Source of the DNA: an uncultured Thermoanaerobaculum sp.
GTDB taxonomy: Bacteria; Acidobacteriota; Thermoanaerobaculia; Thermoanaerobaculales; Thermoanaerobaculaceae
NCBI GenBank assembly: GCA_937934115.1
Contig: CALHAH010000029.1
Coordinates: 1 to 64,000, forward strand
Length of the DNA stretch: 64,000 bases
Reading direction: 5' to 3'
Shown: positions 56,786 through 62,294 of the stretch, piece by piece
Position numbering within the stretch: position 1 is the stretch's first letter
How the letters are laid out: each line of letters begins with the position of its first letter
The notes under the pieces: model-generated
What the model was told of the DNA's origin: nothing
Database searches by the model: none
What the model saw: only the letters and a program-made list of their open reading frames with translations
Position numbers and translations under genes: made by a program

Positions 56786-57943
56786 CTAGTGCGCCAACGC
56801 CGAAGGTTTCACCAGCATCACATCGGAAAGCCGAGGGAGCTCTTCCTGCAGGACACGCAGCGTGAGGGGGTGCACGTGGCCTATGGCCACCGCTTGCCCC
56901 TTGCTGCGGGCCAACGATGCGGCAGTAGCGAGGGCGGAGCGCACGGCCCCCTCATCTTCGACCGCATCCAAGAAAACGTCGCGGCGTAGGGTGCGAATCC
57001 CGGCTTCCCGGGCTACGGTAGCCGCCACCGTAGCGGGCGTGGTGCGGGAATCGAGGAAGTACAAGCCACGCCCCGAAAGCGCCCTCATGAAGTGCTCCAT
57101 GAGCTCCCGGTTGCTGGTGGCGCGGGAGCCCATGTGATTGTTCACTCCCGCCACCGGACCCACCACCGCCAGCGCTTTTTCCAACCTCGTACGTACTTGC
57201 TCCGGCCCCAGTCCCACCAGCAAAGCATCCTCCCCAGGATCCGCCTCCCCGTTGCTCTCGGGTTCCATGGGCATGTGCAGGAGAAGCTCCCTCCCCTGGA
57301 CCCGCAAAGCCGCCGCTACCGCCGCCGAAGCAGGAGCGTTTGGGAGAACAGCCACCGCCACCGGCAAAGGCAAAAGCGAAACCGAAGCCACCACCGCCTC
57401 CGAGTAGCCAGCATCATCTAACACAATGGCGAGCTTCCCTGGTTCACCCTTGTTTACTACGCGCTTTGGCGCCGGCGTCGCCACCGCCTCCTGCAAAACC
57501 ACCAATCGCAACTGGGCCTTCCCTAAAACACCCCGGAAACCAGCCCGGCCGTACCCCCCGGCCTCCAAAACGGGCAGCTCTTTGAGCTCACCCCCCAGGT
57601 TATGGAGGGCCGCTTCCAACTCCAGGGCCAATCGCCGCGCCGAGAACCTACCTTCAGGGGTAACGTGAACTACCAGCGTGGGCAACCCGTCCCGTGAGGT
57701 TTCCCAAAACAGCGAAGCGTGCTCCGCCCCCACCCGGGAAAGCACGTGACGGACCGCATGTTCGAGCCTGCGGGCATCGTCGCCTTGGCGCAAGCTCCTG
57801 CCGGAGGCGAACCACCAAAGGCCCCACCCAACCCCCACCAGCAGCAAAAGCGCCAAGAGCGTGCGCCACACGCTGCCGGTTTTGATCCTACTTTTGGGCT
57901 GTCGGGAGCGAGCTTTAGGCGGCCTTGGCCTTTTCCTCGCCAC
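56786..57943 (-). CDS. Divergent polysaccharide deacetylase (YibQ / DUF610)
   Basis: A 385-residue membrane-anchored protein. A basic N-terminus and one helix (TLLALLLLVGVGWGLWWFA) lead to a periplasmic domain. The NodB-like C-terminal domain has AIVLDDAGYSEAVV, LLHMPMEPESN, GVNNHMGSRAT, YFLDSRTTPATVA and AIGHVHPLTLRVL, all typical of the family. Metal-binding Asp and His residues seem retained. In E. coli the homologue follows envC, and here the EnvC-like and S41 genes precede it. GTG at 57943 has GGAG upstream and overlaps the S41 gene by 29 bases. Confidence 0.88.
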   Translation of the reverse strand: MARKRPRPPKARSRQPKSRIKTGSVWRTLLALLLLVGVGWGLWWFASGRSLRQGDDARRLEHAVRHVLSRVGAEHASLFWETSRDGLPTLVVHVTPEGRFSARRLALELEAALHNLGGELKELPVLEAGGYGRAGFRGVLGKAQLRLVVLQEAVATPAPKRVVNKGEPGKLAIVLDDAGYSEAVVASVSLLPLPVAVAVLPNAPASAAVAAALRVQGRELLLHMPMEPESNGEADPGEDALLVGLGPEQVRTRLEKALAVVGPVAGVNNHMGSRATSNRELMEHFMRALSGRGLYFLDSRTTPATVAATVAREAGIRTLRRDVFLDAVEDEGAVRSALATAASLARSKGQAVAIGHVHPLTLRVLQEELPRLSDVMLVKPSALAH

Positions 57944-59045
57944 GGGCTAGCTCCAGGGCTTTGTCCAAGATCGGGTCCCCTTCAACGCTCGGCCGCACCG
58001 TTGTGGTGGGTTTCAACCCACGCCCGAGGATTGGCTTTTGCTCTTGGTTCAGCAAGAAATGGCGCGCCACCCAAAGCTCGCCGTCGGCCACCGCCGTGGC
58101 TGCCCGCAAGCCCGTATCCCCAAAGGTTTCCACGCCCACCGTGGGCACACCGTTTTGGCTCAAAACAAACGCCAACCACTCCCCAGCCCGGGCCGTGGTG
58201 TGGTCCACGCACACCACCACCTTGCGACCGGTGGGTGGCTTGGAAGCACGTACCGGCTTTGCAGGAAGACCCCGTGCCGCCAGGGGCAACTGCAGCTGAC
58301 CCCCTACGAGCACGCTTGCGGCCTCCACAGCCCCCTCTGGGCTTCCCAGGACCGTGCCGCGGAGATCCACCACCACAGGGTACTGGGCCGACGGCAAGAG
58401 GTTTGCCAAACGCGCCACGTAAAACGGGTCGATCACGGGTACGCGGACCACCGCCACCCCATCCCGCACGGTGACCTGGGGTGAAGGGTCACCCAACTTT
58501 CCGGCTTGTAAGCGGACCGGGCGTTTTCCTGAAAGGTCATGGGCAATCACATCCACCGCCACCGCCTCCCCCTGCTGCTCGGCCAACTCCAAGGCGGTAA
58601 AAGCCCGCCACAGGGGGCGAGCCCGCACCGGCTGAGCGCCAATGCGTTCGATGAGCTCCCCAGGCCGCAACCCCGCCTCCGCCGCTGCCGAACCGGGAAG
58701 CACCTCCAACACCACTGGGTAGGAGCTCCTCATCCCCAGCACCAGCCCAAAGGGGGGCAAGGTTCGCTGGTGATACGCACGAAAAAGCTCGGCATGGGAC
58801 GCTGGAACCCAGGTCCCCTGGGGATCGGCACTGCTCACCAAACCGTTGATGGCACCTTCCTCCAGCTTCTCCAGCGGCACCTCCTCCACATAGGAGGACC
58901 GGACCAACGACACCACTTGCGAGAAAAGCCCCACCGCCTTGTACCGCCCTTCCGTGAGCTTTCCGGAAAGCGCTGCCACGGTTCCCAAACCCAAAATCAC
59001 CGTCAAAGAGGTTGCTAAGAAGACCGTGCGATGCTTCGTGCTCAT
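57915..59045 (-). CDS. S41 (CtpA-like) protein lacking catalytic residues
   Basis: A 376-residue protein. Signal/anchor (VFLATSLTVILGLGTVAAL), a helical region with VRSSYVEEVPLEKLEEGAI, a PDZ domain (about 98-185) and the S41 core follow. YPVVVDLRGTVLG matches the oxyanion-side strand. The usual SASASE motif is TARAGE, with Arg286 at the nucleophile position. The usual TFGKGxxQ is TFGDTGLR, with Asp310 at the general-base lysine. It is therefore probably an inactive scaffold or adaptor. ATG at 59045 overlaps the EnvC-like stop as ATGA. Confidence 0.85.
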   Translation of the reverse strand: MSTKHRTVFLATSLTVILGLGTVAALSGKLTEGRYKAVGLFSQVVSLVRSSYVEEVPLEKLEEGAINGLVSSADPQGTWVPASHAELFRAYHQRTLPPFGLVLGMRSSYPVVLEVLPGSAAAEAGLRPGELIERIGAQPVRARPLWRAFTALELAEQQGEAVAVDVIAHDLSGKRPVRLQAGKLGDPSPQVTVRDGVAVVRVPVIDPFYVARLANLLPSAQYPVVVDLRGTVLGSPEGAVEAASVLVGGQLQLPLAARGLPAKPVRASKPPTGRKVVVCVDHTTARAGEWLAFVLSQNGVPTVGVETFGDTGLRAATAVADGELWVARHFLLNQEQKPILGRGLKPTTTVRPSVEGDPILDKALELARGEEKAKAA

Positions 59046-60190
59046 GGCTGTCCTTTCGGCCGCAGCCAGAGGGCCGGGTCTTGGGCCACCCGGCCGTTGC
59101 GAACCTCAAAGTAAAGGTTGCCTTCGTTGCCTTTGGGGCCCGCAAGGCCCAACGGCTCGCCCATGGCTACCCGCTGGCCGCCGCTCACAAACATGGTAGC
59201 AAGCCGGCCGTAAAGCGTATAGACATCCTCGCCGTGGGCCACGATGACCAAGTTCCCAACAAACTTGAAGAACTGGGCGTAAACCACCCGGCCGGCTGCC
59301 ACCGCCCTTACCTCGGACCCCGGGGGAACTTCCAGGTCCCACCCCGGGTGAAGCACCACCGTGGCGTAGCGAGGATCCCGGAAACGCCCAAAGGCACGCA
59401 CAACCTTTCCCCCCTCCACCGGCCACGGCAACCCTCCTCGCAAAAGACGCACGCCCGTTGGCAGCGGGTTTTGCGCTTCCGTGACCCGCCCCCACAGGCG
59501 TTCCAAGCGGGCTTGCGCCTCCTGGAGCTCTGAAAGAGCGGTTGCTTGCTGACGCCGCTCCCCCTCCAGCCGGGAAAGCTCGGCTAAAACCTGCATTCTT
59601 GTGGAAGCCAGCTCCCGCCTGCGCATCTTAAGCTCCTCGAGCTTGCCGCGAACCTGTTCCTGCTTTTGCGAAAGCACAGCCAAAGCGCGGTTTTGTTCCC
59701 CGGCCAGCGTCTCCAGCTGTTGCAGCTCCTTTTTCTGGTAAGCCACAACTGCCAAAAGGAGGGTAAGCTTTTCCGCAAATCTCTGCGGGTCTGCCCATAA
59801 AGCGGCCGCGAGGTACGGCTCTAAGGTGGTTTTCACCGCCGCCAGCGTCCCCAAGCGCATTCGGAAGCGACGTTTTTTTTCCGCCACCTGTACTTGCAGC
59901 GATGCCAGTTTCTCTTGCGCTTGTTTGAGTTGTGCGGCCACCACCTGCAGCTCGGCCTCCGCTTGCCGCACCCGCAGGGAGGCAACCGCCAGCTGGTTTT
60001 CCAGTTGTTCCCTGCGCGTTACCAACGCATCGGCGCGGCTGGAAAGCTCAGTAAGCCTTTGGGCGATGGTTGCAGCTTGCCGTTCCAACTCGGCAAGCTC
60101 CCCTTCCGGTACGTTGCCCTCAGCCGCGCTCGCCACCGGCACAACAAACACAAGACACGCAAAGGCCCGGAGGTTTTTAGAGAAACGCAT
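59042..60190 (-). CDS. EnvC-like LytM (M23) factor with coiled coil
   Basis: A 382-residue exported protein. Signal peptide (LRAFACLVFVVPVASA), long coiled coil (about residues 30-240) and a C-terminal LytM domain (about 265-380) are in the EnvC order. In the LytM domain HPGWDLE keeps two possible zinc ligands, but the HxH motif is NLYFEVR and the preceding histidine is also gone (YTLYGRL). Like E. coli EnvC, it likely activates amidases instead of cutting wall itself. ATG at 60190 overlaps the upstream phosphodiesterase gene by 14 bases; the frame further upstream is spurious. Confidence 0.88.
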   Translation of the reverse strand: MRFSKNLRAFACLVFVVPVASAAEGNVPEGELAELERQAATIAQRLTELSSRADALVTRREQLENQLAVASLRVRQAEAELQVVAAQLKQAQEKLASLQVQVAEKKRRFRMRLGTLAAVKTTLEPYLAAALWADPQRFAEKLTLLLAVVAYQKKELQQLETLAGEQNRALAVLSQKQEQVRGKLEELKMRRRELASTRMQVLAELSRLEGERRQQATALSELQEAQARLERLWGRVTEAQNPLPTGVRLLRGGLPWPVEGGKVVRAFGRFRDPRYATVVLHPGWDLEVPPGSEVRAVAAGRVVYAQFFKFVGNLVIVAHGEDVYTLYGRLATMFVSGGQRVAMGEPLGLAGPKGNEGNLYFEVRNGRVAQDPALWLRPKGQP

Positions 60191-62294
60191 GGCCAGACAA
60201 CGGCTCCGAGGACTTAACGCCCAAGAGCTTGAGCAACGTGGGGTAAACATCCAGCATGGAAAGATCCCGCCGGAGCAGTGGCCGATTGACGAAAAGCACC
60301 CCCGGTACCACCGCCGGATCCAAAGTGCAGTGGTCCCCCGACCACACCCTGGCGTTGTCCTCAAAAAGGCGATCAGGCATGCCGCCCAAGGCGCTTTGCC
60401 AGGAGATGCGGTAGCCCTGGGACGTGGTGACGATGAGATCGGGGATGAGCTTGGGGTCAAAGGTCTTGTACACCTGCTCGCGGAGAAAAACGCGCGACAC
60501 CGGATGGGCTCCCGTGGCCGGGTCCACTAGGGCCTCCAGCCTAGCCGCCAGCTCCCGCCGCAGCGCCTCGTACTCTTCGCCGGGGGCAACGGTGCCGTAC
60601 CTCTCCCGGCCAGCCAAGTTGATGTAAAGACCGCCCAAGCCCAAATGGTAGGCGCGGGTGCGCCCCCAATCCACGTTGGGCCAAAACTGGCCGCGGTTGA
60701 AAAGGTTTTCCAGGTTTTCCACCTGCCCCGCGGGGGCGGTAAGCGCCAAGTACCCTTCCCGCGCCAGCCACGTATTGATGTGGAAAGACCGACGCCAGGT
60801 GGAAAAACCGTGGTCGGAAAGCACCAACAGCACGTCTTGAGGACCCAGCTTCTCCTGCACCTCCCCCACAATTTCGTCCATGAGCTGGTACGCCTGCTCC
60901 ACGTACTTTGCAAGCTTTGAAGCCTCGCTCCCTGGGTACGCCGGGTGTTGCGGGTCCAAAGCACGCCACAAGATGTGCCCCACCCGATCCGTGAACTCAA
61001 AGTAGTGCACGAGGAGTTTGTCCTCGCTGCCGAGAAAGCGGCGCAAGAGGCGGCGGAACTCTTCGCCTTCGGTGCGCTGAATGTCCTCCATGAAGGTTTG
61101 CTCGTCCACTACCTTTTCCGAAGGAGCCCAGGTGTCAATAGCCCAACCCACGGTTTTGAAGGGACCCAACTCACGAAACAGCTCGGCCGCCCAAGGACGC
61201 GGTGCCGAGAGGTCAAAACCTGGGGGTGTGCGCAGCGGATCCGGGTTGATGGGTTGCAAGTAAAGCCGCAAGTGGGGCTTAAGGCTCAAGAGCTTAAAAC
61301 GGCTCCACCCGCTCACCCGCACCAACGGGTTGAACTGGAAGCAAAGCTTTAACCACGGGCTCCAATCCCCTGGCTTTAGGGTAACCCGCTGCCTGCAGGT
61401 TTCCAGCTCCAACCTCTGGCCACTGTCTAAAAGCGTCAAGGTGAGCGAACTTTCCAAATAAGAGCCGCTGCCAAAAAGCCGGTCCTGGGGCCCCAAGATC
61501 TTGGTCACCCAACGCTTCTCCCCCGCCGGCAGCTTAAAGACCTCAATGGAAAACTCGTTGTCATACCCCGGAACAAAGCTGGGGTCGGTGGTGTAGTAGG
61601 CCGGGGAACCGATGCGGCCGCGGAGGTCGGGGACCCCTAGGCCGGCCAGCAGGTGACCGTGGGGGAAAGGTGTGGCCGGAAAGGTGACCGGCACGCGTAC
61701 CACCGTAGCGGCAATACCCCCCTCCCCCGCCAGCTGCCAAAAGGGGGTGCCGCTGCGCCGGCTTTCCACCTGGGGAATCACCGGGGGGAGCCAACCGCCT
61801 ACCGTCCACCCCACAGCTCCCGCCAGGAATGCCACCGGCAAAGCGTGCAGCCAAGGGCGTCGCCGCCGAAGCCTTCTTGCCACGAGCAAAGCCAAACCCA
61901 AGAACAAAAGGCCGAACGTAGCGGTAATCACCGGTCGGTTGGCGGTCCCCAGCCAGAATTTGGCTTTCTTTTCTTCCGCCACGGCAAACGTGGGCATGTA
62001 GGTTTGCGGGTCGCGCCGCAAAAAATCAAAGATTTGCGTGCCACCTGGGTCTCTTCCCGTGGTGAAGGTTGCCCAGGAGACCGGGGTTTGGGCGGGAACC
62101 GTTGGCGTGAGCCGCGCGTAGCCCCCTTCTTGGGCCAAGGCCGCCAAATGCGGGAGCTTTCCTTCGGCCAAAAGCTTTTCCGTGAGATGGTCATCGGCAC
62201 CGTCAAACCCCAGCACGAGGACACGCCCTAAAGGCGCCGAAAAAGCAGCACAGGCAACACACAGCAGGCCGGAAAATGCGAGCGAGACCTTCAT
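60177..62294 (-). CDS. Alkaline phosphatase superfamily / type I phosphodiesterase, exported
   Basis: A 705-residue protein with a signal peptide (SLAFSGLLCVACAAFSA) and two further membrane helices at about 120-170 (ITATFGLLFLGLALLVA, ALPVAFLAGAVGWTVGGWL). Metal and nucleophile motifs are VLVLGFDGADDHL, TPTVPAQTPVSWATFTTG (nucleophile probably a Thr or Ser here), YFEFTDRVGH and LVLSDHGFSTWRRSFHIN. The C-terminus has DVYPTLLKLLGV. Substrates could be nucleotides, lipids or glycan phosphates. ATG at 62294 overlaps the serine hydrolase stop as ATGA. Confidence 0.87.
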   Translation of the reverse strand: MKVSLAFSGLLCVACAAFSAPLGRVLVLGFDGADDHLTEKLLAEGKLPHLAALAQEGGYARLTPTVPAQTPVSWATFTTGRDPGGTQIFDFLRRDPQTYMPTFAVAEEKKAKFWLGTANRPVITATFGLLFLGLALLVARRLRRRRPWLHALPVAFLAGAVGWTVGGWLPPVIPQVESRRSGTPFWQLAGEGGIAATVVRVPVTFPATPFPHGHLLAGLGVPDLRGRIGSPAYYTTDPSFVPGYDNEFSIEVFKLPAGEKRWVTKILGPQDRLFGSGSYLESSLTLTLLDSGQRLELETCRQRVTLKPGDWSPWLKLCFQFNPLVRVSGWSRFKLLSLKPHLRLYLQPINPDPLRTPPGFDLSAPRPWAAELFRELGPFKTVGWAIDTWAPSEKVVDEQTFMEDIQRTEGEEFRRLLRRFLGSEDKLLVHYFEFTDRVGHILWRALDPQHPAYPGSEASKLAKYVEQAYQLMDEIVGEVQEKLGPQDVLLVLSDHGFSTWRRSFHINTWLAREGYLALTAPAGQVENLENLFNRGQFWPNVDWGRTRAYHLGLGGLYINLAGRERYGTVAPGEEYEALRRELAARLEALVDPATGAHPVSRVFLREQVYKTFDPKLIPDLIVTTSQGYRISWQSALGGMPDRLFEDNARVWSGDHCTLDPAVVPGVLFVNRPLLRRDLSMLDVYPTLLKLLGVKSSEPLSGHAFL

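Follow-up and report, generated by a model that had tools for sequence, protein, structure and literature searches.

CtpA-type proteases set the amount of peptidoglycan hydrolase in the cell, and the envC-ctpA-sddA operon links one protease of this type to daughter-cell separation. The locus described here raises the question of what a CtpA-like protein does in such an operon when the residues that would make it a protease are gone. The window (the whole stretch of DNA that was analysed) is 64,000 nucleotides long and comes from an uncultured Thermoanaerobaculum species of the Acidobacteriota. In it, four genes with overlapping ends form a compact operon on the minus strand:

60177..62294, minus strand: type I phosphodiesterase/AP-superfamily protein, the first of the overlapping gene set and also present in part of the relatives
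59042..60190, minus strand: EnvC-like LytM/M23 protein with most metal-ligand motifs lost (start taken as the ATG at 60190)
57915..59045, minus strand: S41/CtpA-fold protein of 376 aa, a real open reading frame with an ATG start and a well-supported pseudoprotease
56786..57943, minus strand: divergent polysaccharide deacetylase (PF04748, SddA/YibQ type) with intact motifs

The S41 protein has the S41 core fold and the PDZ domain of the S41A C-terminal processing proteases (CTPs). Its Pfam Peptidase_S41 match scores 27.8 bits, above the cut-off of 24, and the PDZ_6 match (25.9 against 27) and the CtpB_N-like match listed below fall slightly short of their cut-offs; no NCBIfam model matched the protein above its curated cut-off. 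P. aeruginosa CtpA and B. subtilis CtpB are its top matches in a PDB sequence search. An AF2 model, computed from the window protein together with ten family relatives, reached a mean pLDDT of 84.2 and a pTM of 0.81, with residues 21-55 below 50; its best PDB fold matches are P. aeruginosa CtpA, H. pylori CtpA and CtpB, and PDZ chains are among the fold matches over residues 94-186. A hydrophobic N-terminal helix, modelled with low confidence at residues 3-26, suggests a membrane anchor or a signal peptide. A scan of genome contigs with the single S41 protein as query yielded no lead. The domains and residues on which the argument turns are the following:

58767..58928, minus strand: residues 40-93, matching the N-terminal dimerisation region of CtpA/CtpB (PF22694, 24.4 bits against a cut-off of 27)
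58491..58766, minus strand: residues 94-185, PDZ domain (Pfam and PDB fold matches)
58608-58610, minus strand: codon of Trp146, a class-wide Trp in the PDZ domain
58542-58544, minus strand: codon of Ala168, at the position of the PDZ ligand Arg
57996..58490, minus strand: residues 186-350, S41 core (Pfam)
58347-58349, minus strand: codon of Leu233, at the position of the P1-pocket Gly
58188..58190, minus strand: codon of Arg286, at the nucleophile position (Ser302 of P. aeruginosa CtpA), by alignment
58116..58118, minus strand: codon of Asp310, at the general-base position (Lys327), by alignment
58104..58106, minus strand: codon of Arg314, at the third triad position (Gln331), by alignment
57942..57974, minus strand: residues 358-368, C-terminal helix with Leu360 and Leu364, a possible counterpart of CtpA helix H6
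57918..57923, minus strand: C-terminal Ala-Ala, an ending found in 48/85 operon-type S41 proteins

The Ser-Lys dyad of active S41A CTPs is absent, and Arg286 and Asp310 stand in its place. In pairwise alignments to P. aeruginosa CtpA, for which the PDB chains 7rpq (wild type) and 7rqh (S302A) served as references, Arg286 aligns with Ser302, the residue that differs between the two chains, Asp310 faces the Lys of GKG (Lys327) and Arg314 faces Gln331 (CtpA numbering from PMC8764530). In vivo, CtpA is inactivated by S302A or by K327A on its own (PMC11021448); given this and the alignment, the first-pass annotation was correct in reading Arg for the nucleophile Ser and Asp for the Lys base, and its description of a dead CtpA that retains the fold and the PDZ domain agrees with the Pfam matches, the PDB fold matches and the residue losses. 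It had proposed conservation in orthologues as a check, and the nearest relative (same genus, 86% identity) carries the identical R/D/R; in family f1 Asp310 and Arg314 are fixed in 13/13 members and position 286 varies (G in 9, R in 3, Q in 1). It had also named two observations that would count against it, a nucleophile displaced to a nearby serine and orthologues with intact dyads. The first was looked for and not found. As to the second, the dyad is lost in 30/30 sequences of families f1 and f2, but four distant members of the class are intact. We therefore consider the pseudoprotease status of the S41 protein, as judged from its sequence, to be well supported.

More trivial explanations of the altered residues were ruled out. 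No displaced nucleophile was found: Thr284 occupies a position that is Ser or Thr already in active CTPs (TTASAAE in the canonical paralogue L001), and no invariant Ser, Lys or His lies near the old site in f1. Sequencing or assembly error is countered by the same residues in a separate genome of the same genus and by related losses throughout the phylum, and an alignment artefact by the same profile, which returns S/K/Q in 21/21 paralogues and in 4/4 alphaproteobacterial relatives.

The old site is altered beyond the dyad, with Leu233 at P1-pocket Gly246, Leu96 at the hinge Phe and Ala168 at the PDZ ligand Arg (Arg168 of CtpB; Arg162 in H. pylori CtpA, PMC12749690). The ligand Arg is replaced by Asp or Ala in 13/13 f1 members and by Asp, Gly or Ala in 17/17 f2 members, neither family has the hinge Phe, and both carry Leu, Val or Trp in place of the P1 Gly; outside f1 and f2 the ligand Arg is retained in 29/53 dead sequences. 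Fold residues such as D227, E289 and G304 are 100% conserved within the class, and in the dead clades the former catalytic loops are more conserved than the whole core (0.66 and 0.70 against 0.53 in f1). Eight polar residues in the two loops are invariant in f1 (C279, D281, T284, E289, E306, D310, T311 and R314), and the old active site is apparently fixed in new forms rather than merely abandoned. These invariant residues would suit a hydrolase that still acts through a rebuilt active site, which we nevertheless judge highly improbable, since none of them is an invariant Ser, Lys or His, the replacements vary by clade, and the P1 and PDZ determinants are gone as well. They would also suit a cleft that has come to accommodate a hydrophobic or glycan ligand, by analogy with vertebrate IRBP/RBP3, a carrier of retinoids and fatty acids that descends from a protease and has lost the catalytic residues (PMC11750400). 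IRBP is indeed among the fold matches of the S41 model, but its Z is lower than those of CtpA and CtpB and the resemblance is one of fold, so that such a carrier seems very unlikely. The old Lys loop of the f2 family (L066-L073 and other loci) has the sequence GHAPHM in most cases; two His in it are fixed in the majority of members and could conceivably form a metal or ligand site.

The gene is under purifying selection. For S41, comparison of the window with its same-genus relative gives a dN/dS of 0.145 (EnvC 0.174, deacetylase 0.177, phosphodiesterase 0.075, canonical CtpA 0.062), and the S41 identity of 86% exceeds that of EnvC (78%) and the deacetylase (77%). With its catalytic residues gone and the gene still under purifying selection, the protein fits the description of a pseudoenzyme at the level of sequence. 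Within the gene, dN/dS is higher in the core (0.207) and in the catalytic segment (0.30, a noisy value from 41 codons) than in the PDZ domain (0.099), as might be expected of a decaying pseudogene without function; this reading is scarcely credible, however, in view of the whole-gene value and of a frame and synteny that are kept phylum-wide.

The neighbouring genes point to a pathway. In the window EnvC-like protein, YGRL and LYFEV stand at the metal-binding motif sites, where metal-binding LytM enzymes carry HxH-type motifs, and the protein looks non-catalytic by this measure; its LytM domain is degenerate at the metal ligands, as in many relatives of the class. In the class most metal-ligand motifs of the EnvC-like proteins are gone and the deacetylase motifs are intact. 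With degenerate metal ligands in the EnvC-like protein and a dead S41 protein, two of the three genes thus look like pseudoenzymes. A phosphodiesterase/AP-superfamily gene lies upstream of EnvC in the window and in part of the relatives; in E. coli and Ruegeria its place is occupied by gpmM/gpmI, likewise a member of the AP superfamily. E. coli SddA/YibQ, which deacetylates denuded glycan strands and is genetically linked to EnvC, is a PF04748 protein (PMC12440217), and the gene order in P. aeruginosa is envC-ctpA-PA5135 (PMC12569750). EnvC, S41 and deacetylase follow each other in the same order in a Sinorhizobium meliloti record, and the arrangement is therefore either old or transferred between phyla. 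By gene order as well as by tree, the S41 protein belongs with the EnvC-operon CtpA group, and from this synteny it probably takes part in the EnvC/deacetylase/amidase pathway. The genome of the window holds two Amidase_3 genes and three other S41 genes, one of them a canonical S/K/Q CtpA (G000:C14); the other two (L002 and L003) are open frames of 1064 and 1105 aa, far longer than CtpA. No FtsX_ECD match was found in this genome, so that the E. coli route of EnvC recruitment is not supported there, and a tRNA/tmRNA scan of the 64-kb window yielded no lead.

The dead S41 protein is not peculiar to this genome. The protein was matched in 57/59 genomes, some of the matches being to a paralogue only, and 87 S41 proteins of the operon clade were compared, 51 from the class Thermoanaerobaculia and 36 from outside it. 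The dyad is lost in 83 of the 87, including three (L121, L122 and L124) with a gap in the Lys column, and is intact in four, all of the class family f6 (L035, L040, L046 and L048). It is intact in all 21 CtpA paralogues fetched from class genomes (20 and L001) and in all four alphaproteobacterial operon relatives. Position 286 is mostly Gly across the operon clade. The Lys position is occupied by Asp in f1 and in most cases by His in f2; elsewhere it holds Leu, Met, Trp, Tyr, Phe or other residues. PF04748 is present in 55/149 Acidobacteriota genomes. Among the 46 such genomes outside the class, 40 regions were fetched: an operon-type S41 gene adjoins the deacetylase in 36, and in the other four (L104, L111, L112 and L126) EnvC is followed directly by the deacetylase, as in E. 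coli, so that S41 is dispensable there. The EnvC-S41-deacetylase order occurs across the Acidobacteriota and, in a survey of a few plasmid-collection records from beyond that phylum, in Alphaproteobacteria. Eight genomes without a clear operon-type S41 gene were searched for the deacetylase, which was found in two, near a contig start, and not in the other six; five of these six are less than 90% complete, and the absence is therefore not firm. In the genus of the window, one genome (G002, 94% complete) has neither an operon-type S41 gene nor PF04748, by loss or by a draft gap. A dead S41 gene persists in 5/5 fetched f7 loci (L051-L055) with neither EnvC nor PF04748 beside it, and PF04748 was not found in those genomes; the partner of the S41 protein may therefore be something else.

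The history of the loss can be read in part from the tree. All 87 operon S41 proteins form one clade against the paralogues (SH-aLRT 100), at the base of which stand four alphaproteobacterial operon-type S41 proteins and one clostridial S41 protein, all S/K/Q; three of these five genes have EnvC and a deacetylase as neighbours (L151-L153), one has EnvC only (L155) and one neither (L154). The ancestor is thus most simply taken to have been active. A minimum of two changes, one loss and one regain, accounts for the distribution of the dyad, or seven losses if regain is disallowed. Placing all intact-dyad sequences in one clade of the 108-row tree was rejected by the AU test (p-AU 0.022, a single p-value from a quick tree, to be read with care), and the dyad may have been lost once, long ago, or several times. 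Among the dead sequences, S is retained in two and K in three, which suggests decay along different routes. Together, a CtpA orthologue that turned into a pseudoenzyme and is widespread in the Acidobacteriota is well supported by sequence.

What has been kept bears on what the protein may do. Y52 and V53 of the N-terminal region are fixed in the operon S41 proteins of the class, and R141 and W146 in the PDZ domain and D357, L360 and L364 in the C-terminal helix also mark these proteins class-wide against the paralogues, in which Y52, V53, W146, D357, L360 and L364 are rare or absent. Trp146, at the start of a PDZ helix, is present in all operon S41 proteins of the class and in no paralogue, and may occupy the peptide groove or change its shape. 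The dimer of P. aeruginosa CtpA is built by its N-terminal region, which is also the part that binds the activator LbcA; the hexamer is formed through a C-terminal helix carrying Leu426 and Leu430 (PMC8764530, PMC11021448). The C-terminal region of the window protein is shorter than that of CtpA, and its helix is possibly the counterpart of CtpA helix H6, by comparison with the published structure (PMC8764530).

The first-pass annotation had proposed an adaptor, as EnvC is for amidases. Work with the EnvC-like neighbour is plausible from the conserved operon, but binding of peptide ends by the PDZ domain is weakened in the order to which the window belongs. An adaptor that captures EnvC or cell-wall hydrolases by their C-termini with its PDZ domain, to deliver or protect them, draws on a PDZ fold that is kept and well conserved (f1 identity 0.67, with the low dN/dS given above) and on the ligand Arg of many dead sequences outside f1 and f2; it is nonetheless unlikely, given the loss of that Arg in 30/30 f1 and f2 sequences, of the hinge Phe and of the P1 Gly. 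With the P1 Gly and the ligand Arg replaced and the regions that match the dimerisation elements of CtpA kept, a scaffold is likelier than such an adaptor in this order. We thus give an even chance to a model in which a dead envC-ctpA-sddA CtpA orthologue has been kept as a non-cutting, membrane-tethered, oligomeric scaffold for septal peptidoglycan processing. With its N-terminal region and C-terminal helix as interfaces, the S41 protein would form a CtpA-like dimer or hexamer, would hold the EnvC-like protein and/or the deacetylase close to the septum, and would regulate amidase activation and glycan deacetylation by binding, without cleavage; cutting would remain the task of the canonical CtpA paralogue, whose gene lies elsewhere in the genome. 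The EnvC/amidase/deacetylase system as its partner is what we infer from the surroundings of the gene.

The C-terminus adds a further feature. The Ala-Ala ending is found inside and outside the class, in 44/81 dead and 4/4 intact operon-type S41 proteins, and in none of 172 controls (paralogues 0/21, EnvC 0/72, deacetylases 0/79); of the 44 ORFs in the window, one ends in Ala-Ala, and this may be the S41 gene itself. Among the operon-type S41 proteins L008-L127 the tail is often Lys/Gln/Glu-Ala-Ala. A by-product of overlap with the next gene is unlikely, since the Ala-Ala codons and the stop codons vary among these genes and EnvC, whose gene also runs into the next one in the window, has this ending in 0/72 loci. 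The SsrA tag ends in Leu-Ala-Ala. SsrA-tagged proteins are degraded by the E. coli CTP Prc (PMC6686036), and by analogy the tail might, purely as a hypothesis, be linked to an active CTP. The S41 protein could then be a decoy, a docking partner or a regulated substrate of the active CtpA paralogue in its own genome. This agrees with the frequency of the tail, its varied codons and the related behaviour of Prc, but we think it distinctly unlikely, because the four intact members carry the tail too, 37/85 lack it, and tag-like recognition is a matter of resemblance. More specific, and quite improbable in our estimate, is an Acidobacteriota pseudoprotease family, its dyad lost several times and its former active site reshaped, that forms an Ala-Ala-tailed, tethered decoy or docking platform joining an active tail-specific protease to the EnvC/amidase/deacetylase machinery; if this were true, a protease-shaped regulator would be controlled by, or would control, its own active paralogue.

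With the scaffold as the preferred reading, the locus suggests that a protease has been converted into a component of the division machinery that does not cut but has a structural or regulatory role. A phylum that usually keeps the place, the fold and the dimerisation regions but not the chemistry suggests a structural, non-proteolytic job of the operon CtpA. The literature searched, which cannot prove absence, yielded no report of a CtpA pseudoprotease in an envC operon.

Known systems resemble the locus in different respects. BipP is likewise a predicted inactive peptidase, and it is reported to regulate the CTP system NlpI-Prc (PMC12569750), but it belongs to the unrelated family M16 and NlpI-Prc is its target. 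IRBP/RBP3 is a non-proteolytic S41-fold protein too; it is, however, a vertebrate retinoid carrier outside any such operon, and it is described as having lost its catalytic residues after transfer to vertebrates (PMC11750400). B. subtilis CtpB and H. pylori CtpA share the fold and the domain order of the window protein, whereas their dyads are active, and the window protein lacks both the hinge Phe and the PDZ ligand Arg that H. pylori CtpA has (PMC12749690). In the E. coli EnvC/SddA(YibQ) operon an EnvC-like activator adjoins a PF04748 deacetylase (PMC12440217), as in the window but without an S41 gene in between. P. aeruginosa CtpA, known from the LbcA-CtpA complex, has both the EnvC-S41-deacetylase order and the S41 fold with N-terminal region, PDZ domain and core; it is an active Ser302-Lys327 protease with Gln331 as third residue, in contrast to the Arg, Asp and Arg of the window protein. 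In P. aeruginosa and in rhizobia, too, CtpA may have a non-proteolytic job that its proteolytic activity hides.
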